The position numbers were made by a program, and so were the translations under genes. DNA of 49,722 nt from Vasconcelosia minhoensis LEGE 07310 (lineage in GTDB: Bacteria; Cyanobacteriota; Cyanobacteriia; Phormidesmidales; Phormidesmidaceae): contig NZ_JADEXG010000039.1 of NCBI RefSeq assembly GCF_015207255.1, positions 1 through 49,722 on the forward strand. The letters are read 5' to 3'. The notes under the pieces were generated by a model. The model worked only from the letters and a program-made list of their open reading frames with translations. It made no database searches and had not been told where the DNA came from. Positions 7,423 to 45,002 of this stretch are shown one piece after another; position 1 is the stretch's first letter; the number at the start of each line of letters is the position of its first letter.

Positions 7423-7560
7423 ATGCTGAATGTTTTAGAGCAGGTTCAGGCGGTTTTGGAGGCGCCGTTTTTTCAATTGGGGCTAATCAATTCGGAAGAA
7501 TATAATCAAAATCCGGTGGACTGGATTCGGAAACATCTGGAAGGCCTATTTGGGCTGTAG
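7423..7560 (+). CDS. Possible small protein, 45 residues, unknown
   Basis: An open frame from ATG (7423) to TAG encodes a small acidic protein starting MLNVLEQVQ and ending WIRKHLEGLFGL. It has no recognised domain. The C-terminal half looks like an amphipathic helix ending in hydrophobic residues. A GGGG stretch lies a few bases before the ATG. It sits between the GTPase and the phosphoesterase on the same strand. It could equally be the tail of a decayed gene. Confidence 0.35.
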   Translation: MLNVLEQVQAVLEAPFFQLGLINSEEYNQNPVDWIRKHLEGLFGL

Positions 7561-7614
7561 AATGTCTGTTGGTTCAGATGAACGCCCTGAAGATAGGCTC
7601 AATAGAAAGGTTCA

Positions 7615-8277
7615 ATGCTCGCGGTTAATCTTCACGAAGCTCAGGTTTTAGGACAGGCGGTATGCCTACTAGAAGAGCGGGCGCTCTTTCTGCCAGCTGA
7701 GCAATCACTGCTGGTATCCGATGTACACCTGGGCAAGGCAGAGACCTTTCAGATGGCGGGGATTCCGATTCCAACGCAGGTGAATCAGGCGACAATAGCC
7801 CGGTTAAAGCGGCTCTGTGAGCAGCTCTCGCCGCAGCGGCTATTTATCCTGGGAGATTTGTTTCATGCCCGTCAGGCGCTGGTCGAGTCGGTGCTGACTC
7901 CGTGGCGTCAGTTTCTTGCTGAGGTGGGCGCTGAGGTGACGCTGGTGGTGGGGAATCACGACCGGCGGCTGGTGCAGGAGCTGGCGGCTTTTGAGATGGC
8001 CTGCACGTCGGCGGTGACCCTGGGGGGCTGCCTGCTCAGCCATGAGCCGGTTCAGCAGTCGGCCGGGCTGAATATCTGCGGGCATATCCATCCGGTGATT
8101 CGACTCAGCAGTCGGCTAGACGCGCTGCGGCTGCCCTGCTTTTGGGTTGAGACGACGGCGCGGCGGCTGACGCTACCGGCCTTTGGCGACTTTACCGGCG
8201 GCTATGAGGTGGCGATCGCGGCCGGAACTCAGGCCCTGATCGCAGTGGAGGGCCGCCTGCTGGAGCTGTCGCGCTAA
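7615..8277 (+). CDS. pdeM: Metallophosphoesterase, PdeM-like (ligase-associated type)
   Basis: The 220-residue protein carries the calcineurin-like metallophosphoesterase motifs in order: SDVHLG (D36, H38), GDLFH (D81), GNHD (N114-D116), SHEP (H143) and GHIHP (H157, H159). These should bind two metal ions. The length and spacing, with DVHLGKAETF followed by PxP in the region after the first motif, match the PdeM family. That family is often encoded with DNA ligase and a Lhr-like helicase and is proposed to act in DNA repair. Neither partner is nearby, so the repair role is inferred from the family alone. The stop overlaps the tail of the convergent glycosyltransferase gene by 4 bp. Confidence 0.82.
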   Translation: MLAVNLHEAQVLGQAVCLLEERALFLPAEQSLLVSDVHLGKAETFQMAGIPIPTQVNQATIARLKRLCEQLSPQRLFILGDLFHARQALVESVLTPWRQFLAEVGAEVTLVVGNHDRRLVQELAAFEMACTSAVTLGGCLLSHEPVQQSAGLNICGHIHPVIRLSSRLDALRLPCFWVETTARRLTLPAFGDFTGGYEVAIAAGTQALIAVEGRLLELSR

Positions 8278-9158
8278 CCCCGCTGCCGCTCCCGCCGCTC
8301 CCAAAAGAAGCCGGCGGCATTGGCGACCTGGGAGACAAACAGCACCGCCGTCAGCGTCAGGCCCTGCCGACTCTGGCCATGGGTGAAGGGATAGCGCAGC
8401 AGCCGCAGGTAGTAGCCGCCTTCAATTTCAAAGTTGCCCCAGCCTTTTTGCGATCGCGTCTGGTGAAAGCGAAAGGCCCCGCGACCGTAGTTGAAATGCT
8501 GCTTCCAGAAGCTGCGTAGGGTCATCGGGTGCGCGTGATAGATCACGACTTCCGGCGCGTAGGTCATGGGGTAGCCGGCGTGGATCCAGCGATCGCACAG
8601 CTCCCGGTCTTCCGAGGTGGTAAAGCTTTCATCGAAGCCACCCAGCTCAAGAAATTCCTGCTTGGGCACGACCATATTGTTAGAGGCAAAAAATCGAGCC
8701 TGGTCGCGTACGGCATTGTAGTGGTCGTAGCCCATGCTGATGATGTTCTGGCTGGTCATGGAAAAGGGATTGTTGTCTAGGGCGTTGACCGTGCGACCGC
8801 CGACGATGCAGACCGGCTTTTGCGCAAAGCAGGCTGCGAGCTTTTGCAGCCAGTCGCGAGCGGGCATACAGTCATCGTCGGTAAAGGCAATGTAGCGCCC
8901 CTGGGCCTTGTCAGCCGCTCGGTTGCGCGCCGCGGCGGGTCCCGCATTCGCCTGCCGCAGCAGAACCAGATTCAGCACCTTTTGAAAAGGTTCGACCACG
9001 GCGTCTAAAGGCTCGTCACTGCCGTCATCCACCACAATCACCTCAAAGCGATCGCGGGGATAGTCCAACCGCGTCAGCGATTCTAGACAAGCAACAATCT
9101 GCCGTGGTCGGTTATAGGTTGGAATGATAATTGAAAAGAGAGGTTGAGCTGAGTCCAT
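8274..9158 (-). CDS. Glycosyltransferase family 2
   Basis: The 294-residue protein is a GT-A fold inverting glycosyltransferase. It begins with FSIIIPTYNRP, has VIVVDDGSDE (about 40-49), and carries the metal/sugar-nucleotide binding DDD at 94-96 (AFTDDDC). The acceptor-side region contains FTTSEDRELCDR, the ED of which is the usual catalytic base position. A weak hydrophobic segment near the C-terminus may hold it to the membrane. It is the last gene of the polysaccharide cluster and is separated from the previous one by 138 bp, the widest gap in the cluster. The donor sugar cannot be read from sequence. Confidence 0.88.
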   Translation of the reverse strand: MDSAQPLFSIIIPTYNRPRQIVACLESLTRLDYPRDRFEVIVVDDGSDEPLDAVVEPFQKVLNLVLLRQANAGPAAARNRAADKAQGRYIAFTDDDCMPARDWLQKLAACFAQKPVCIVGGRTVNALDNNPFSMTSQNIISMGYDHYNAVRDQARFFASNNMVVPKQEFLELGGFDESFTTSEDRELCDRWIHAGYPMTYAPEVVIYHAHPMTLRSFWKQHFNYGRGAFRFHQTRSQKGWGNFEIEGGYYLRLLRYPFTHGQSRQGLTLTAVLFVSQVANAAGFFWERRERQRG

Positions 9159-36947: not shown

Positions 36948-39566
36948 ATGCAACCTACCGATCCCAATCAGTTTACCGATAAGGCCTGGGCCGCCGTAGC
37001 CCGAACCCCTGACATCGCCAAGCAGTCTGGTCATCAGCAAATTGAGACTGAGCACCTAATGCTGGCGCTTTTGGAGCAAGAGGGTTTGGCGGCCAGTATT
37101 TTACAGAAAGCCGGGGCGACCGTTTCGCAGCTGCGCGATCGCACCGAAACCTACATTCGCCAGCAGCCCCGGATCAGCGGCAGCGGCGGCTCGGTCTACC
37201 TGGGTCGTTCGCTCGACACGCTGCTGGACCGGGCTGAGTCCTACCGCAAAGCCTTTGAAGATGACTACATCTCAGTCGAGCATTTAATTTTGGCCTATGC
37301 CCAAGACGAGCGGTTTGGCAAAGCGCTGCTGCGAGAATTTGACCTGGACGAAGCCAAACTGAAAACCGCCGTTGAGCAAGTGAGAGGCAAGCAAAAGGTG
37401 ACCGATCAGAACCCCGAAGGCAAGTACGAATCGCTGGAAAAATATGGCCGCGACCTGACCGCCTTTGCCCGCGAAGGGCGGCTTGACCCGGTGATTGGCC
37501 GGGACGACGAGATTCGCCGGACGATTCAAATACTTTCGCGGCGGACTAAAAATAATCCGGTGCTGATTGGCGAGCCAGGCGTGGGTAAGACCGCGATCGC
37601 AGAAGGCTTAGCCCAGCGCATCGTCAGCGGTGACGTGCCGCAGTCGCTGCGCGATCGCAAGCTAATCGCCCTGGACATGGGGGCGCTAATCGCCGGGGCG
37701 AAATATCGGGGCGAATTTGAAGAGCGGCTCAAGGCCGTGCTGAAGGAAGTCACCGAATCCCAAGGACAAATCATCCTGTTCATTGACGAAATCCATACCG
37801 TCGTCGGGGCTGGCGCCACCCAGGGCGCGATGGATGCGGGTAACCTGCTGAAGCCCATGCTGGCCCGGGGCGAGCTGCGCTGCATCGGCGCGACGACGCT
37901 GGACGAGTATCGCAAATACATCGAGAAGGATGCCGCCCTGGAACGCCGCTTTCAGCAGGTCTATATCGATCAGCCCACGGTGGAGGATACCGTCTCGATT
38001 CTGCGCGGCCTGAAGGAGCGCTACGAGGTGCACCACGGCGTCAAGATTGCCGATAGTGCGCTGGTGGCTGCTGCAACGCTTTCGACTCGCTATATCAGCG
38101 ATCGCTTTTTGCCCGACAAGGCGATTGACCTGGTAGATGAGGCCGCCGCCAAGCTGAAAATGGAAATCACCTCCAAGCCAGAGGAGTTAGACGAGGTCGA
38201 TCGCAAAATCCTCCAGCTGGAAATGGAGCGGCTGTCGCTGCAAAAGGAAATCGACCCGGCCTCGGTAGAGCGGCTAGAGCGAATTGAGAAGGAGCTGGCC
38301 GACCTGAAGGAAGACCAACGGGCGCTGAACGCCCAGTGGCAGGCTGAGAAAGACACCATCGACCATATCCAGTCGATTAAAGAAGAGATCGACCGGGTGA
38401 ATATTGAAATTCAGCAGGCCGAGCGCGACTATGACCTGAACCGGGCGGCTGAGCTCAAGTATGGTAAGCTCACCGACCTCCAGCGTGGGCTCCAGGAGGC
38501 CGAAGCCGACCTGAGCGAGACCCAGACTTCTGGTAAGACGCTGCTGCGCGAGGAAGTCACCGAGGCCGACATTGCTGAAATCATCTCCAAATGGACGGGC
38601 ATCCCGATTAGCAAGCTGGTGCAGTCCGAAATGCAGAAGCTGCTGAACCTGGACGCTGAGCTGCACCGCCGCGTGATTGGTCAGGATGAGGCGGTGACGG
38701 CGGTGGCCGATGCGATTCAGCGATCGCGAGCCGGTCTGGCCGACCCCAACCGCCCCATGGCCAGCTTTATCTTCCTCGGCCCCACCGGTGTCGGTAAAAC
38801 CGAGCTGGCCAAGGCCCTGGCGGCCTACCTATTCGACACGGAAGACGCGATGGTGCGGATTGACATGTCGGAGTACATGGAGAAGCACGCGGTCTCCCGG
38901 CTGGTGGGTGCGCCTCCTGGATATGTCGGCTACGACGAGGGCGGACAGCTGACTGAAGCGGTGCGGCGAAGGCCCTTCGCGGTGATCCTGTTCGACGAAA
39001 TCGAGAAGGCCCATCCCGATGTGTTCAATATCCTGCTTCAGGTGCTGGACGATGGCCGGATTACCGACTCGCAGGGTCACACGGTCGATTTCACCAACAG
39101 CATCATTATTATGACCAGCAATATCGGCTCCCAGCACATTCTGGATATTGCCGGGGATGACAGCCAGTATGAGGAAATGCGATCGCGCGTCCTAGAGGCG
39201 CTGCGGGCCAACTTCCGCCCGGAGTTTCTCAACCGCGTCGATGAAACCATTATCTTCCACGCTCTGGAGCAGGTCCAGCTGCGCGAAATCGTGAAGATTC
39301 AGGTACGACGGCTGGAGCAGCGGCTGAGCGATCGCAAGATGTCGCTGCGGCTGTCGGATGCAGCCCTGGACTTCCTAGCCGATGTTGGTTTCGACCCGGT
39401 CTATGGGGCAAGGCCGCTGAAGCGAGCCATCCAGCGCGAGCTGGAGACCCAGATTGCCAAGTCCATCCTGCGGGGTGAGCTGGGCGAAGGCGATACGATC
39501 TATGTCGATGTGGAAAATGAGCGGCTGGCCTTCAAGCGGCTGCCCGCCGAGCTGCTGACGACATAG
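36948..39566 (+). CDS. clpB: ClpB disaggregase (HSP100 chaperone)
   Basis: The 872-residue chaperone reactivates aggregated proteins together with DnaK. In order it has an N-domain (about 1-150, with [10 protein letters not shown] and [14 protein letters not shown]), a first AAA+ domain with Walker A GEPGVGKT (208-215) and Walker [10 protein letters not shown], and a coiled-coil middle domain (about 410-530). The second AAA+ domain has Walker A GPTGVGKT (611-618), with lysine K617, and [10 protein letters not shown]. The M-domain separates it from ClpA/ClpC, and no ClpP-binding loop is expected. I start at ATG 36948, where family similarity begins, rather than at the upstream ATG at 36822. 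Cyanobacteria often carry more than one ClpB; which one this is cannot be told here. Confidence 0.97.
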
Positions 39567-39664
39567 ATAAATAACATCAGTTCTGGATATGGCAATCGTC
39601 AAAAGCCAATAAAGGGAGGAGTAGGTACGCTGAAATTGCAAACCATTCAGCCCTGCCCTCCGCT

Positions 39665-39847
39665 ATGACTAGCTTAGAAGACCTCTTTTGCCACGTGACT
39701 TGGTATTGCCCTAGAGGTCATGATTTTGAGTTGAGGATGTGCCGCACTCCGTGTGGCACATCCATATTTTTTAGGGCTATCCATCGTCAAACCTTTTTGC
39801 CAGCTAACATTCCCGCTCACCGGACGCAGATTACCTATGCGTCTTAG
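39665..39847 (+). pseudogene. Possible IS982-type transposase 5' remnant
   Basis: The first residues, MTSLEDLFCHV, resemble the usual start of IS982-family transposases as I remember them (MxSLEELFCHVDDFC). The resemblance stops after about eleven codons. The rest of the 60-codon frame runs through a terminator hairpin and has no transposase features. If real, it is a truncated left end of an insertion sequence. A chance match is quite possible. Confidence 0.25.
39735..39772 (+). terminator. Intrinsic terminator downstream of clpB
   Basis: GGATGTGCCGCAC pairs with GTGTGGCACATCC (13 bp, one G-T pair) around a 3-nt loop. ATA and six T follow. It lies about 170 bp after the clpB stop and is the first good terminator for that transcript. 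Confidence 0.8.
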
Positions 39848-39888
39848 CGACAATTCGACTTCGTTCTGATACAGCCGGGTTGTTATAC
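39802..39888 (-). repeat. attC-like imperfect inverted repeat, copy 2 (degenerate)
   Basis: Read on the minus strand, this 87-bp stretch starts GTATAACAACCCGGCT and ends AGCGGGAATGTTAGCT. The ends resemble attC R boxes (RYYYAAC and GTTRRRY) with one or two deviations. The arms pair imperfectly (TAACA-CCCG-CT). It begins 12 bp after the stop codon of the DUF5615 gene, the expected place for a cassette-associated site. Its length is nearly the same as copy 1 (40908-40993), but the pairing is weaker. Confidence 0.35.
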
Positions 39889-39900
39889 GGCAGCTCTACA

Positions 39901-40233
39901 CTACGCCAACACCAGAAGACTTTCCGTTTCGCTACGTTCAAACTGAACGATCGTATCCAAATTATCCCTCAAAATTTGAGTAATCTTCGATGTCGGGCAG
40001 TTTTGAACTCGAAGATAAATAAACTTGGGTGGATGACCATAGAGTAAGCTGCGCTGATGAAAATCAGAATCTTTGGAAACAATCACAAATCCATTTGCTT
40101 TTGCATAGTCCCAGATCACTAAATCGTCTGTATTGATCAGTCCCAGCGTCTTGACATGCTCAGAATCCGGATACAGGTCGCTAATTCTGTGAATGATGCG
40201 ATCGGATAGGGTTTCATCTAAAAGCAGCTTCAC
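39901..40233 (-). CDS. DUF5615 PIN-like protein (toxin of a DUF433-DUF5615 pair)
   Basis: The 110-residue protein has the PIN-like pattern of DUF5615/Mut7-C proteins: MKLLLDETLS with an acidic pair (D6, E7), DDLVIWDYAKANGFVIVSKDSDF in the middle, and FIYLRVQN. The conserved Asp residues could coordinate metal as in PIN-domain ribonucleases. It is encoded directly downstream of a DUF433 gene with a 4-bp ATGA overlap, the usual arrangement of this toxin-antitoxin family. RNase activity is inferred from the fold and has not been shown for this protein. Confidence 0.82.
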   Translation of the reverse strand: MKLLLDETLSDRIIHRISDLYPDSEHVKTLGLINTDDLVIWDYAKANGFVIVSKDSDFHQRSLLYGHPPKFIYLRVQNCPTSKITQILRDNLDTIVQFERSETESLLVLA

Positions 40234-40454
40234 AGCGATGCCACGAATAATTTCTTTTCGCGGTCAGCAGCAAAAGCAAGACACGCTTTGATATCCTCTG
40301 AAGTGAGTTCAGAAAAATCCTCCAGAATTTCTGCCTCGGTCATCCCACCTGCCAAATATTCTAAGATGTCATACACCGTGATTCGCATTCCCCGAATACA
40401 CGGCTTGCCACTACGCTTTCCAGGCTCAATTGTGATGATGTGTTGGTAGTCCAT
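40230..40454 (-). CDS. DUF433 protein (antitoxin of a DUF433-DUF5615 pair)
   Basis: The 74-residue protein has the DUF433 signature: I-x-x-xPGKRSGKPCIRGMRITVYDILEYL, then GMTEAEILEDFSELTSEDIKACLAFAAD. The second half is a helix-turn-helix-like fold found in VapB-like antitoxins, so it could bind its own promoter as well as the toxin. Its stop overlaps the toxin start by 4 bp, so translation is coupled. A second pair of the same type lies 0.9 kb upstream. Confidence 0.85.
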   Translation of the reverse strand: MDYQHIITIEPGKRSGKPCIRGMRITVYDILEYLAGGMTEAEILEDFSELTSEDIKACLAFAADREKKLFVASL

Positions 40455-40524
40455 AAAAGTGGCATGAGTGGATAGCTGTTTACATTATATCAAGGATTCA
40501 TGCTGTCACAGACAGAGAATGCTG

Positions 40525-40806
40525 CTAAAGTTTATCGGCAATGTGTTGAGCCACTTCTGCTGAAGTTCTCACTGGAATAATTTCAAAATGACCGAGATCG
40601 TTCCAATCTTTGATCCGAATATTCCGAATATCAAACAAGGCTAGATCATTCGTCCGCATGGGTTGGAAGCACCGAAAATAGTCTAAATCGACCCAACTAT
40701 CTACATACTCAAGACCTGGTGGCAGCTGACGGCCACGATCGCGGGCACGGCGGTAGATCTCAACAGCCGCTCCTACGTTGAAATATTCAATGACCACATA
40801 AAGCAT
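40525..40806 (-). CDS. DUF3303 family protein with a 9-bp in-frame duplication
   Basis: The 93-residue protein starts MLYVVIEYF. It has YRRARDRGRQLPPGLEYVDSW and FRCFQPMRTND, followed by WNDLGHFEIIPV, which is the DUF3303 pattern. The family is small, of unknown role, and common in cyanobacteria. Between LF and WNDL it is three residues longer than I expect of the family. The DNA there is a perfect 9-bp tandem duplication, TCCGAATAT twice at 40614-40631, which accounts for the excess. I start at ATG 40806, where the family sequence begins. It lies between the two toxin-antitoxin pairs, on the same strand. Confidence 0.75.
   Translation of the reverse strand: MLYVVIEYFNVGAAVEIYRRARDRGRQLPPGLEYVDSWVDLDYFRCFQPMRTNDLALFDIRNIRIKDWNDLGHFEIIPVRTSAEVAQHIADKL
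40614..40631. repeat. Perfect 9-bp tandem duplication in the DUF3303 gene
   Basis: TCCGAATAT is repeated back to back. It inserts three residues (Ile-Arg-Asn) at a point where the family is otherwise shorter, and so appears recent. Confidence 0.8.
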
Positions 40807-40907
40807 GGATTGCAACCTCAGCAACGACTTCGCTAATTGAACGCACCGATTTCTCTAATCGTCACATAGGTAACCTTTGAGTACAGCCACAACCGGTAAC
40901 GCAAGCG

Positions 40908-40993
40908 GCATAACGATAGAGTTCAACGGCGGTAGATAACTTAGGCATCATCACCAATCATCCCCATTCCGCCGCTGCAACGATTTGTTATGC
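40908..40993 (-). repeat. attC-like imperfect inverted repeat, copy 1
   Basis: On the minus strand this 86-bp stretch begins GCATAACAAATCGTTGCAGC and ends CCGTTGAACTCTATCGTTATGC. The outer 7-bp boxes GCATAAC/GTTATGC are perfect inverted copies and fit the attC R-box pattern (RYYYAAC, GTTRRRY) with one deviation each. The inner arms GTTGCAGCGGCGG and CCGCCGTTGAAC pair with one unpaired base, as the extrahelical base in attC L boxes does. It starts 10 bp after the stop of the second DUF5615 gene, the position a cassette recombination site takes. No integrase gene is in the window. Confidence 0.55.
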
Positions 40994-41003
40994 TGTTATC
41001 AAC

Positions 41004-41354
41004 TTACAAGGGAAGGTAATAAATTTGACCATCTAGGTCCTCCGGAGTGCCACATTCAAGAATCATGAAAAGATCTTCAATTACTCTCCCGATTGATGCA
41101 TCTGTGTGAATTTCAATTACTCCTGGCATAGCGAGATTACTGGCTAATCTTTCATAAGCGTAGCGAGTAATCGTAGCAACATCATGGGTGAGTAAAACAT
41201 GACCTTTGTCAGCAGCCCATTCAAGCACAACCGGATCATCTTCTCCCGATAAATCAATATCCTGAACGCGAACAATGTCGATGTTTGGATTGCGGCGCAA
41301 TAAGCCTCGAATGATTGTGTTGTCTAAATTTTCATCGGCTAGCAGCTTGACCAT
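41004..41354 (-). CDS. DUF5615 PIN-like protein, second pair
   Basis: The 116-residue protein has MVKLLADENLDNTIIRGL with an acidic DEN motif, then IVRVQDIDLSGEDDPVVLEWAADKGHVLLTHDVATI. This is the PIN-like fold of DUF5615. It is a different branch from the neighbour at 39901-40233, with little identity outside the motifs. It overlaps the upstream DUF433 gene by 16 bp. The protein is probably the toxin of the pair, by family resemblance only. Confidence 0.82.
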   Translation of the reverse strand: MVKLLADENLDNTIIRGLLRRNPNIDIVRVQDIDLSGEDDPVVLEWAADKGHVLLTHDVATITRYAYERLASNLAMPGVIEIHTDASIGRVIEDLFMILECGTPEDLDGQIYYLPL

Positions 41355-41686
41355 GCCTGCCGCTCAATTCTTCGGGCGAGTAAACGATCTCGCAAGCCTT
41401 GAGGATCAAATCGAGCTTCATTTATTTGGCGAATTTCTTGAGCTTGCTGCTGTCTCTGCTGGAGATACTCCTCTACATCCTCTTGATGGTTAAGGTAGAA
41501 GGCAATTGAAGCGTAAACGTCACCCAGCCTTAAAGATGGATAACGATAAACAATCTCCTCAGCTGTTGATCCTTGCTTGAATACAGCGACCACAGTATCT
41601 AAAGTCACCCGTGTTCCACCAACACAAACCACGCCATGAGGATTAGTCGTCAAGGGTGCAGATTCAGCTAGTATCGAAAGAGCCAT
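41339..41686 (-). CDS. DUF433 protein, second pair
   Basis: The 115-residue protein has a core GVVCVGGTRVTLDTVVAVFKQGSTAEEIVYRYPSL followed by LGDVYASIAFYL, the DUF433 pattern. It then has a longer helical tail (HQEDVEEYLQQRQQQAQEIRQ) than the 74-residue copy at 40230. I start at ATG 41686; a longer frame adds seven hydrophobic residues without support. It is the upstream partner of the DUF5615 gene, with overlapping ends. Confidence 0.8.
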   Translation of the reverse strand: MALSILAESAPLTTNPHGVVCVGGTRVTLDTVVAVFKQGSTAEEIVYRYPSLRLGDVYASIAFYLNHQEDVEEYLQQRQQQAQEIRQINEARFDPQGLRDRLLARRIERQAWSSC

Positions 41687-41835
41687 GATGACAAATATGA
41701 GAAACACTATTGAATTCTATCTTAGCCTTGAATCCGAAACCAGTCCTTTATCAATAACTTGAGACGAACGACTTGTCTTCACTAAGGTTGTTAACAAGAT
41801 GTTAAGTAAGCTTACAAACCAGATATATGACAGAA
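41687..41835. other. AT-rich spacer between the second TA pair and the two-gene operon
   Basis: No attC-like repeat or good terminator is seen here. It should include the promoter of the DUF433 gene. A GTTGTTAACAA palindrome-like stretch (41788-41798) is the only feature of note. Confidence 0.35.
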
Positions 41836-42393
41836 TTAGCTCCGAAGCGTTTTAAGGTACTTCACCCCATCCGCAGATACTCTCATATACTTCAGTTTGC
41901 CAACTTTTCGAGTTTGAAAGAGCAATTTCTTAGCAGCAAGTCTTTTCAAAGAACTCGACGGATTTGATAATTTTATTCCATGTTCTTGGAGTGATTGGTT
42001 GACTGCAGAGGTTTTAAAGTCATTCTCTGGCGATTGCTTTTGTTCGTAATAAGCCGTGAGTAATGCTTTGTCTAGATCATTAACATTATCTCTAAAGCCG
42101 TGAAACCATTCACCAAAATTATCTGGCATATCAAGATCTTGCTCACCAGCTATTACTAGTTTCTCCTCTTCTTCTTCAGCAACAGCTGCCATTTCTTCTT
42201 CTTCAATCGAATCACTATCGTCTTTATAATCATTGGTTATAAGAAGCGCCATATATTCAGCAATAGCATCTATAGCAGCCAACTGATTTGATACAAATTG
42301 CTCTGATCCTTCAAATTCAACCTCACCTGTTTTGAAGTTAATTTTTGCCTTTGCTGGATTTCCTGATTCTACAGTTTCAGTTTCGAATTCCAC
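41836..42393 (-). CDS. Unknown protein with acidic linker and C-terminal winged-helix-like domain
   Basis: I do not recognise this 185-residue protein. Residues 12-50 form a small module (AKINFKTGEVEFEGSEQFV then an amphipathic helix). Residues 57-78 are very acidic (EEEE blocks). Residues 105-183 look like a winged helix: DKALLTAYYEQKQ, a recognition-helix region with NPSSSLKRLAAKKLL, and a wing with KLKYMRVSADGVKYL. The same pattern occurs at the N-terminus of its partner encoded just upstream. The genes overlap by 17 bp, which implies coupled translation. A nucleic-acid or protein sensing role is plausible but unproven. Confidence 0.75.
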   Translation of the reverse strand: MEFETETVESGNPAKAKINFKTGEVEFEGSEQFVSNQLAAIDAIAEYMALLITNDYKDDSDSIEEEEMAAVAEEEEEKLVIAGEQDLDMPDNFGEWFHGFRDNVNDLDKALLTAYYEQKQSPENDFKTSAVNQSLQEHGIKLSNPSSSLKRLAAKKLLFQTRKVGKLKYMRVSADGVKYLKTLRS

Positions 42394-43114
42394 TTTTATA
42401 TAATAGCTCCTCTATGGTTGCTCTAAAGTCTAGCCTTACTTTACTAATATCTGCTCTTTTCGCATTATAGTAAATTTTGTGATCAGAGTAATTTCCGATC
42501 GCTCTGAAATCCTCCAAACATGATTTTGTATTTCTTGAAAGCGAAAGCTTTGGATTTCTCAAGGCATTAGAGATAATGTCAGAAAGCATCTTATAATTTC
42601 CTTGAGAATCTTTGATGTCTGAGTCAATGCCCTGGTTTTCATAAGAATGAATCAAACATATTTCAAGAAGTCTGCGCATTAAAACTGCACAACCATCGAA
42701 TATGTTGTTTTCGTAAGAAGCATTGATTTGTTTAGATAGAGATTCTATATAACCACGTGTGTTCTCATAAAGTAAGGTAGGTAAGATAGTATCTGTTGCT
42801 TCAATATCTTCGGATTTCTCTCCCAAAAAAGGATACTTTTTGTAGAGACTTGAACTCTCCTTAGCGTGAAGTCGAAAAGAGTCTTCATGTTGCCCTTTCA
42901 GAAAAGAGCGAGAGCTTTTCAAGTTTTGCCTCAATCTTGATTTATTTGGCCTATGTAAATCTAGGGTCTCAAACCATTCACATACAGAATCTACTGTGAA
43001 TTCAAAGCCATCTTTCCCATTCTGATGATAAAACGCTAGCAATACAACTTTGTCTATTTCCTTTTTATTAAGTAATTCAGTTTTTTTGGTAAAACCAGTT
43101 AACGAAGATATCAT
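42377..43114 (-). CDS. Unknown protein, winged-helix-like N-terminus and DUF4145/HEPN-like C-terminus
   Basis: The 245-residue protein has two parts. Residues 20-95 (DKVVLLAFYHQN, FTVDSVCEWF, PNKSRLRQNLKS, SFRLHAKE) resemble the winged-helix-like domain of its partner. Residues 120-240 are helical and resemble DUF4145/HEPN-type domains: IFDGCAVLMRRLLEICLIHSY, MLSDIISNAL, and DFRAIGNYSDHK with R204 and H212 spaced as in DUF4145. That spacing is wider than the RX4-6H of active HEPN RNases. It is first in the operon, with about 380 bp of regulatory-looking DNA upstream. Codon use is AT-rich compared with flanking housekeeping genes. Possible defence or stress module; function unknown. Confidence 0.75.
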   Translation of the reverse strand: MISSLTGFTKKTELLNKKEIDKVVLLAFYHQNGKDGFEFTVDSVCEWFETLDLHRPNKSRLRQNLKSSRSFLKGQHEDSFRLHAKESSSLYKKYPFLGEKSEDIEATDTILPTLLYENTRGYIESLSKQINASYENNIFDGCAVLMRRLLEICLIHSYENQGIDSDIKDSQGNYKMLSDIISNALRNPKLSLSRNTKSCLEDFRAIGNYSDHKIYYNAKRADISKVRLDFRATIEELLYKSGIRN

Positions 43115-43493
43115 TCCGTTTATTTTTGATGCCGACCGATAGCCTCAAGAAAGTCTAGCGTGCTCAAGCAGACTTTGCGTCACATCAGTTAAGAATCGCT
43201 GCATCATTTGCCAGCTAACTATTTATTAGATCTATTCTTTCAGTATATCTACCTGGAACCGGCTGGATATACTGCGAGCTGTCCATTATTACGCTTACAT
43301 TAGGCAGATATATTGAAGGTTTCAGTATATTTTCCAACCACAAGCAGCCAGTTCAGAAGAGTCGTTCCAAGTTAGTGCATAAGGTCTAATCAAACTGCAT
43401 ATGAAAGCTTGACCTAGAAAACGCCTTGACCAAGAGCAGGTCAGTGTATGGCTGGGTTGAGGCCACCGAAACCCAGCCTACGCTCAATCACTA
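43115..43493. promoter_or_regulatory. Upstream region of the two-gene operon with paired CAGTATAT half-sites
   Basis: The 379-bp stretch separates malQ (which ends here) from the start of the unknown operon and contains no gene. It holds four copies of an 8-bp half-site in two inverted pairs. CAGTATAT at 43241-43248 faces ATATACTG at 43267-43274. ATATATTG at 43308-43315 (one mismatch) faces CAGTATAT at 43323-43330. The second pair is the core of the palindrome 43308-43330. The half-sites lie about 125-215 bp before the first gene. The array looks like an operator for a dimeric regulator; whether the operon's own winged-helix proteins bind it is a guess. Confidence 0.45.
43450..43478 (-). terminator. 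Hairpin just after malQ, possible transcript end
   Basis: GGCTGGGTT (43450-43458) and AACCCAGCC (43470-43478) form a perfect 9-bp stem 16 bp after the malQ stop in the transcribed direction. No T run follows on the minus strand, so it is not a classical intrinsic terminator; it may mark a processed 3' end. Confidence 0.4.
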
Positions 43494-45002
43494 TCAGCGG
43501 CTGTATAGCTTGGTCAGGTCTAGCAGTCGCTGCTGATGGTCTACCGAGAGCTGGTCAGAGCTGCCGTAGCGCCAGCGCCAGTTGCCAGGAATGACGCTGG
43601 GGTCGTTCATCCTGCCGCTGTTGTCCAGCCCAAAGATGTCCTGGAGCGGGATGATGGCAGAGTTAGCGACCGTAGCCAGGGCCGTGCGAATCAGCACCCA
43701 GTTAATTTCCTCAACTTCGTCCACGCTGCCATAGCCCAGGTATTTAGCCAGAAACTGCTTTTCCTCAGCCCCAGCCCGATTCCACCAGCCCAGGGCCGTG
43801 TCGTTGTCGTGGGTGCCGGAGTAGACGATGCAGTTTTGTGGATAGTAGTGGGGCAGGTGCGTATTTTCAGGGCCGCCAGCAAAGGCGAACATGAGGATTT
43901 TCATGCCGGGGAAGTCAAAGCGATCGCGCAGGGCCTCCACCTCGGGCGTAATGATTCCCAGATCCTCGGCTAGAATCGGCAGGCTGCCCAGCCGGTCGTT
44001 CAGGGCCTTGAAGAATTCATCTCCCGGGCCGGGAATCCACTCGCCGTTCATCGCCGTTTCCTCATCGCCAGGCACCTCCCAATAGGACTCAAAGGCGCGG
44101 AAATGGTCTACCCGCACCAGGTCCACGTATTGCAGGGTGGCCTGGAAGCGCTGAATCCACCAGTCGTAGTTATTCTGACGGCAGGCATCCCAGTCGTAGA
44201 CCGGATTGCCCCAGAGCTGCCCGGTGGCGCTGAAGTAGTCCGGCGGCACGCCCGCAATAAAGGCCGACTCCAGCGTTTCTGGATCGAGCTTAAACAGTTT
44301 AGGATGCGCCCAAACGTCGGCGCTGTTGTGGCAGACATAGATCGAGACATCGCCAATGATTTGAATATTTTTTTGGTTAGCGTACTGACGCAGATCGGTC
44401 CATTGTTCAAAGAACTTGAACTGCATAAACCGCTGAAAGTCAATCCGCTCCTTCAGCGCCTCGGTCTGGGCTTTGAGCGCTTCTGGCTGGCGCTCTGCGA
44501 TGGGCCGCTCCCACTGGCTCCAGCTCTTGCCCTGGTTGGCCTCTAGCAGCGCCATAAACAGCACGAAGTCATCCAGCCACCAGGCCTGCTCCTGACAAAA
44601 CCGGTCGTAGCGGGATTTGCGATCGCCCTCTAGCGTGTCTCGAAATCGCTCAAAGGCCTGCTGCAAATATTCGTCTTTGTAGGGGATGACCCGGTCAAAC
44701 TCAACCCGGTTGGGGTTGCTATCTGGCAGGGGCGAGAGCGAACCTGCATCCAGTAGACCGTCTTCCGCCAGCCGCTCCAGGCTGATCATCAGCGGATTGC
44801 CGGCAAAGGCGCTGAAGTTCATGGTGTAGGGCGAATGCTCGTAGCCAGTCGGCCCCAGCGGCAAAATCTGCCAGAGGGTCTGGCCGCTGCGTTCTAGAAA
44901 ATCAATAAACTCATAGGCCGATTGCCCCAAATCGCCAATGCCGTGGGGGCTGGGTAGGGAAGTCGGGTGCAGTAAAACGCCGCTGGCGCGTTGAAAACTC
45001 AT
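43494..45002 (-). CDS. malQ: 4-alpha-glucanotransferase (disproportionating enzyme, GH77)
   Basis: The 502-residue enzyme moves alpha-1,4-glucan segments between chains in glycogen turnover. It opens with RASGVLLHPTSLPSPHGIGDLG, the GH77 signature. Active-site stretches are DLVRVDHFRAF (nucleophile Asp), ILAEDLGI (acid/base Glu) and GTHDNDT (transition-state Asp). The length is standard for the bacterial/plant D-enzyme type without N-terminal extension. It is divergent from the TPR gene at 45166. Confidence 0.96.
   Translation of the reverse strand: MSFQRASGVLLHPTSLPSPHGIGDLGQSAYEFIDFLERSGQTLWQILPLGPTGYEHSPYTMNFSAFAGNPLMISLERLAEDGLLDAGSLSPLPDSNPNRVEFDRVIPYKDEYLQQAFERFRDTLEGDRKSRYDRFCQEQAWWLDDFVLFMALLEANQGKSWSQWERPIAERQPEALKAQTEALKERIDFQRFMQFKFFEQWTDLRQYANQKNIQIIGDVSIYVCHNSADVWAHPKLFKLDPETLESAFIAGVPPDYFSATGQLWGNPVYDWDACRQNNYDWWIQRFQATLQYVDLVRVDHFRAFESYWEVPGDEETAMNGEWIPGPGDEFFKALNDRLGSLPILAEDLGIITPEVEALRDRFDFPGMKILMFAFAGGPENTHLPHYYPQNCIVYSGTHDNDTALGWWNRAGAEEKQFLAKYLGYGSVDEVEEINWVLIRTALATVANSAIIPLQDIFGLDNSGRMNDPSVIPGNWRWRYGSSDQLSVDHQQRLLDLTKLYSR

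Follow-up and report, generated by a model that had tools for sequence, protein, structure and literature searches.

A two-gene HEPN and winged-helix module in Vasconcelosia minhoensis, a possible mobile conflict system

Results

Two overlapping genes lie in AT-rich DNA beside toxin-antitoxin-like pairs

The window, by which we mean the whole 49,722-nucleotide stretch analyzed here (contig NZ_JADEXG010000039.1 of the cyanobacterium Vasconcelosia minhoensis LEGE 07310), carries two minus-strand open reading frames of 245 and 185 amino acids that overlap by 17 bp, at the place where an earlier reading of the DNA letters (the original prediction) had put an unrecognized gene pair (Table 1). We refer to the larger product as the effector and the smaller as the partner, after the roles proposed for them below. 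The partner opens with GTG, a start that is backed by the L018/L049 pair (L numbers denote the loci compared in this work), because in this pair, 73% identical to that of the window, the genes also overlap by 17 bp. There is no gene in 43115-43330. Neither window protein scored above the cut-off for any Pfam, NCBIfam or PADLOC family, so the description as unrecognized stands; PHROGs gave weak matches only, and a sequence search of the PDB returned no relative of the effector and only chance-like matches for the partner.

The two genes have a GC content of 35.8%, whereas the remainder of the window stands at 55%, and toxin-antitoxin pairs adjoin them, both as originally described. On one flank stand two DUF433/DUF5615 pairs, each identified by Pfam, and a DUF3303 gene; on the other stands malQ. 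The DUF433/DUF5615 (PIN-like) pairs are toxin-antitoxin-like and occupy 39901-40454 and 41004-41707, the second being more diverged, with the DUF3303 gene (40525-40824) between them. The malQ gene (4-alpha-glucanotransferase, 43494-45002) has a second copy in the genome (G000:C44:36126-37607, 53% identical), and both copies are present in only some relatives. Comparison of the malQ site with relatives found no synteny in common there and shows the absence of the module only. The window contains 48 HIP1 sites and no GCGATCGC from 39,336 to 43,919; the HIP1-free stretch noted earlier is thus real, but as a sign of foreign DNA it is not significant, since random placement of the sites yields a gap of this length 41% of the time (P 0.41). 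Rfam gave no match within 39500-43700, and a promoter and terminator scan did not rise above shuffled sequence.

Table 1. Features of the module in the window (residue numbers are those of the respective protein)
Feature	Position	Strand	Basis
Effector gene; N-terminal winged helix and C-terminal HEPN (DUF4145-like)	42377..43114	-	ORF, model, homologues, dN well below dS
Effector winged helix, residues 13-99	42818..43078	-	model helices and wing; Z ~7-8; hhalign to partner 94.7%
Effector HEPN domain, residues 113-245	42380..42778	-	structure matches; DUF4145 in 17/18 members
Arg147 of helix 2, invariant; candidate to stand in for missing Arg	42674..42676	-	model and alignment
Glu151 of helix 2, invariant; candidate for the acidic residue of the active site	42662..42664	-	model and alignment
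Gly207 (24 G and 2 A among 26), where Rx4H has its canonical Arg	42494..42496	-	alignment; motif definition of PMC3710099
His212, invariant 26/26; equivalent of Rx4-6H His	42479..42481	-	family alignment
Arg231 of helix 4, invariant; another candidate to stand in for missing Arg	42422..42424	-	model and alignment
Partner gene, 185 aa, GTG start	41836..42393	-	ORF, AF2 pLDDT 75.1, relatives
Partner N-terminal beta-hairpin and helix module, residues 13-54	42232..42357	-	model; recurs in relatives
Partner acidic linker, residues 55-92, mostly low model confidence (disordered)	42118..42231	-	model
Partner winged helix, residues 98-185	41839..42102	-	Z 8-9 to winged-helix chains; Foldseek winged-helix matches

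Both proteins carry a winged helix and the effector also carries a HEPN domain

The AlphaFold (AF2) model of the effector (pLDDT 90.3) comprises an N-terminal winged helix, matched by winged-helix chains at Z about 7-8, and a C-terminal domain with the four-helix HEPN fold. Against solved structures the HEPN part aligned best with 2hsb (Z 14.0; 116 aa superposed at an rmsd of 1.9 Å). Other HEPN chains scored Z 8-12, among them 2q00 (Z 11.6), HepT (Z 9.3) and SO_3166 (Z 9.2), and the AbiA, Csm6 and RnlA folds also matched. The window effector alone matched DUF4145 at E 0.024, under the cut-off; 17 of 18 family members matched it at E<=0.1 (best 2.6e-7), and the relatives at L027 (5.9e-6) and L111 (4.5e-7) exceeded the curated cut-off, which bears out the proposed DUF4145/HEPN-like C-terminus.

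The partner model shows the anticipated succession of a beta-hairpin with a helix, an acidic linker of low confidence and a confident winged helix, so that models and structure comparison give the winged-helix fold in both proteins. That the two proteins share a paralogous segment was the most specific claim of the original prediction, and it was upheld: while pairwise BLAST of the segment was weak (E 0.018), hhalign joined the two winged helices at 94.7% probability (E 5.9e-8; reversed controls <1%). Judged by these profiles, the winged helices of effector and partner are homologous. A profile comparison of the partner's beta module with the C-terminal tail of DUF5343 gave 1.8%, at which similarity is not shown.

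Partner-like proteins with a beta module, linker and winged helix also occur where no HEPN gene is present (L090-L092, L095, L098, L093, L097, L087). In non-photosynthetic Cyanobacteriota these genes occupy seemingly conserved chromosomal sites, for example beside gcvPB (L090-L092, L095, L098), flagellar-type genes or clpS, and they are possibly an unstudied core family. Since such proteins stand alone in core-looking places, the partner family is broader than the two-gene module. The module itself was never found in one constant core location.

The HEPN active site retains the motif histidine and lacks the motif arginine

HEPN RNases are defined by an Rx4-6H motif; usually the arginine is followed by a polar N, D or H, and helix 2 contributes an acidic residue (PMC3710099). 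Across the 26 family members His212 never varies and residue 208 is always one of these polar residues (N 13, D 12, H 1), which fixes the register of the motif and places Gly or Ala where the arginine should be; an arginine four, five or six positions before His212 was found in 0/26. The original prediction had named a conserved R204/H212 pair. The histidine is indeed invariant, but residue 204 is R in 12, K in 13 and N in 1 of the 26 and lies away from the canonical arginine position, 207, so that we rejected it as the catalytic arginine. Some HEPN families keep the histidine, lose the arginine and have other conserved basic residues (PMC3710099), and it is plausible from the alignment that the window HEPN could act as an RNase by using a substitute arginine (Arg147 or Arg231, Table 1). 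Because the canonical motif is absent from the whole family, catalysis by this HEPN type is not assured.

The pair is conserved, sporadically distributed and often found near conflict genes

The nearest relatives are pairs in other cyanobacteria, 73% (L018/L049) and 62-63% (L002/L083) identical to the window pair. Remoter ones were found in other Cyanobacteriota, including non-photosynthetic members, in Prevotella and other Bacteroidota, in Alphaproteobacteria and other Pseudomonadota and in Phycisphaerae, and three viral contigs also carry relatives of the module. Prevalence is roughly 1-2% of sampled genomes in several phyla (9/386 phylum genomes, some partial or weak; 4/345; 3/347; 6/398; all counts take in the seed genomes). 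Effector and partner lie on the same strand, separated by -17 to +14 bp, at all 26 distinct loci measured, as would be expected of a heteromer, and two further loci outside this set agree. The pair is a small overlapping two-gene operon of the kind that characterizes type II toxin-antitoxin systems. Gene order varies, with the partner first at 21 loci and the effector first at 5. The genes are under purifying selection, with dN/dS about 0.03-0.23 where dS was measurable (dS was saturated for the window's own comparisons). One HEPN gene stands alone (L021) and three copies are decayed (L004, L023, L024); the gene is intact in L021 and a remnant in L023 and L024 between one and the same pair of flanking genes, indicating decay in place.

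In a tree of HEPN domains the window type grouped with phage, Prevotella and Pseudomonadota sequences (99/97), and other cyanobacterial copies fell apart from it, with Alphaproteobacteria and Planctomycetota (100/99). Since these groups cross phyla and separate the cyanobacterial copies, the tree supports horizontal spread. The closest cyanobacterial pairs occupy three unrelated genomic sites. The window proteins and several HEPN queries returned no match when run against collections of plasmids and phages, the window-type family had no match in 72,556 plasmids, and viral scans with single window proteins or with the partner alignment A9 found nothing. L006 and L007, from MAGs of Prevotella and of Lachnospiraceae, carry almost the same module (94% aa) together with AbiLi/AbiLii-type genes, a likeness that reflects either recent transfer or mis-binning of a short contig.

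The neighborhoods agree with the accessory, mobile-type distribution that had been predicted (most neighbor-gene names were read from sequences and only some were scanned). The module is adjoined by BrnT/BrnA-type genes at L008-L011, MazF-type genes at L083 and L049, VapBC-type genes at L049 and L114, AbiLi/AbiLii at L006, restriction-modification-type and integrase genes at L028, an integrase or resolvase at L052 and L027, a transposase at L044 and L114, and terminase genes on the phage contig L026. Ordinary chromosomal genes surround several other copies (L013, L045, L047). In the four cyanobacteria L008, L009, L010 and L011 the BrnT/BrnA-type toxin-antitoxin genes come directly after the module, which suggests that the two were transferred together. 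On the phage contig L026, which is 43 kb long, the module (7423-8723) immediately precedes the terminase genes, a position that is unusual for a cargo pair.

Related operons combine similar winged helices with different HEPN domains

Five loci (L028, L045, L047, L048, L112) pair a DUF5343-type partner with a HEPN protein that has no winged helix. The L047 partner matches the PADLOC candidate PDC-M34A at 2.7e-40 over nearly its full length, and the L028 HEPN matches PD-Lambda-5_A at 2.8e-4. At L113 and its relative L114, on an Ochrobactrum plasmid, the effector winged helix is kept (hhalign 97.5%) and the partner has a similar architecture, and the HEPN domain is a different one with a canonical Rx4H, RNTAAH at L113 and RNMAAH at L114. 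This is the one plasmid match of the canonical-HEPN variant; both L114 genes are annotated "hypothetical protein", and the L113 HEPN matches the validated antiphage protein PD-T7-3 at 2.7e-6. Profile comparison of the window-type and canonical HEPN gave 3.9-9%; because similarity is not shown at this level, we treat the canonical type as a HEPN family of its own that is joined to the same winged helix. A comparison of two partner profiles (partCD versus partC) was left out of account, since one sequence stood on both of its sides. A three-gene operon (L119:6053-7962) encodes two different winged-helix partners, matching the partner profile at 91% and 97%, and then a HEPN effector with a canonical RNDCGH whose N-terminus gave no match to the winged-helix profiles. 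In some loci the partners are as large as ~390 aa and contain zinc ribbons and several winged helices. From these comparisons it looks as if different RNase domains can be exchanged on one winged-helix core, and this is the best indirect argument that the window HEPN would be the effector.

Discussion

We tentatively favor the reading that the pair is a mobile two-gene conflict module, a HEPN-RNase effector with a winged-helix controller that acts in abortive infection or in a toxin-antitoxin-like manner, and we consider it nearly as likely to be right as wrong. In such a module the partner would contribute its homologous winged helix and a small N-terminal assembly module on the acidic linker, and the two proteins would assemble into a complex in which the partner keeps a HEPN dimer inactive. 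Disturbance of the winged helices or of their ligands, for example by phage DNA, by a phage nucleic-acid-binding protein or by loss of the partner, would release the HEPN, which might then cut RNA, probably tRNA or mRNA, and arrest the cell. The sensor and effector roles put forward by the original prediction are inference, as are binding to DNA, cleavage of RNA and protection against phage.

The strongest alternative, which we think somewhat unlikely, is a plain toxin-antitoxin addiction pair that stabilizes elements and has no part in phage defense, the acidic winged-helix partner both neutralizing a HEPN toxin and repressing the operon. The small overlapping genes, the neighboring toxin-antitoxin pairs, the acidity and DNA-binding-type fold of the partner and its leading position at 21 of 26 loci all speak for it; the lack of window-type matches on sequenced plasmids, partners that can be large or two per operon, and a paralogous winged helix on the effector itself, unusual for such a toxin, speak against it, as does the upstream region, where no conserved operator was seen among three close relatives. 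If the module were only such a pair, it would still be an unannotated toxin family.

It is quite improbable, in our judgment, that the HEPN is a non-catalytic binding or dimer module, as proposed for MtlR, and that the two winged helices form a heteromeric nucleic-acid-binding regulator. The loss of the Rx4-6H arginine in 26/26 members would be explained, MtlR belongs to the DUF4145-like HEPN group (PMC3710099) and matches the effector model (6kcr, Z 8.2), and lone partner-like winged-helix proteins do sit in chromosomal places. Yet four polar residues, His212 among them, show no variation at all in the family, related operons have an intact Rx4H, the HEPN of type IX retrons is also without the canonical motif and nevertheless needs His and Arg for defense (PMC13405049), and a housekeeping role ill fits the sporadic distribution and the conflict-gene neighbors. 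Decayed or fortuitous reading frames without function, for which one might cite the decayed HEPN copies elsewhere, are almost certainly not what we see, given intact frames, the low dN/dS and pairing conserved across phyla.

If the conflict-module reading is true, bacterial immunity gains an uncharacterized HEPN effector system that spans phyla, and it becomes testable how a HEPN without the motif arginine still acts and whether HEPN with winged-helix control is independent of retrons; the canonical HEPN, the DUF5343 partner and the two-partner operon are natural variants for such tests. A bolder extension, which we regard as unlikely, is that these loci are an unrecognized widespread immune class in which the winged helix common to effector and partner or partners would form the core of control, and HEPN RNase domains that can replace one another, some with canonical Rx4H and some Arg-less, would act as effector. 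Such a class would resemble type IX retrons without reverse transcriptase or msDNA, and would sense phage DNA or phage nucleic-acid-binding proteins directly.

Comparison with known systems

Among characterized systems the type IX retron is the best-worked analogue. In the Kva2 retron, described in a preprint, a HEPN without the canonical motif is encoded together with a winged-helix partner and cleaves tRNA upon release, the trigger being a phage HTH protein (PMC13405049). The likeness is at the level of the fold only; the residues that the retron HEPN requires, H64 and R122 (PMC13405049), come in a different order from those of the window family, and in size the retron proteins (27 and 19 kDa; PMC13405049) are near the proteins of the DUF5343-type pairs, which have about 210-240 and 170 aa. 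RVT_1 had no match in the genome of the window, and none of 21 module-bearing genomes or records had it next to the module; since the reverse transcriptase is absent, the module is by definition not a type IX retron.

The PADLOC candidate PDC-M34 is related through PDC-M34A, which is matched by DUF5343-type partners elsewhere and not by the window partner; the one PDC-M34B model tested (PDLC04590), run on 11 module-bearing genomes or records, matched none of them at the module. PD-Lambda-5 and PD-T7-3, validated antiphage systems of E. coli (PMC9519451), show a weak likeness to the HEPN regions of L028 and L113, differ in architecture and have no match to the window protein. The open-licence papers searched mention neither this gene pair nor DUF5343.

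With the DUF4145/HEPN superfamily (PMC3710099) the window family has in common the fold, the acidic residue of helix 2, the motif histidine and the polar residue after the motif arginine, but it differs in the Gly or Ala that replaces this arginine, in its fused winged helix and in its own type of partner. The HEPN-MNT (HepT/MntA) and RnlA toxin systems likewise place a HEPN effector of matching fold next to a controlling gene, whereas the partner here is a winged-helix protein and not a nucleotidyltransferase or RnlB. A HEPN protein with a controller is therefore already a known kind of system, and what is new here is the architecture that combines a shared winged helix, an Arg-less HEPN and parts that look exchangeable.
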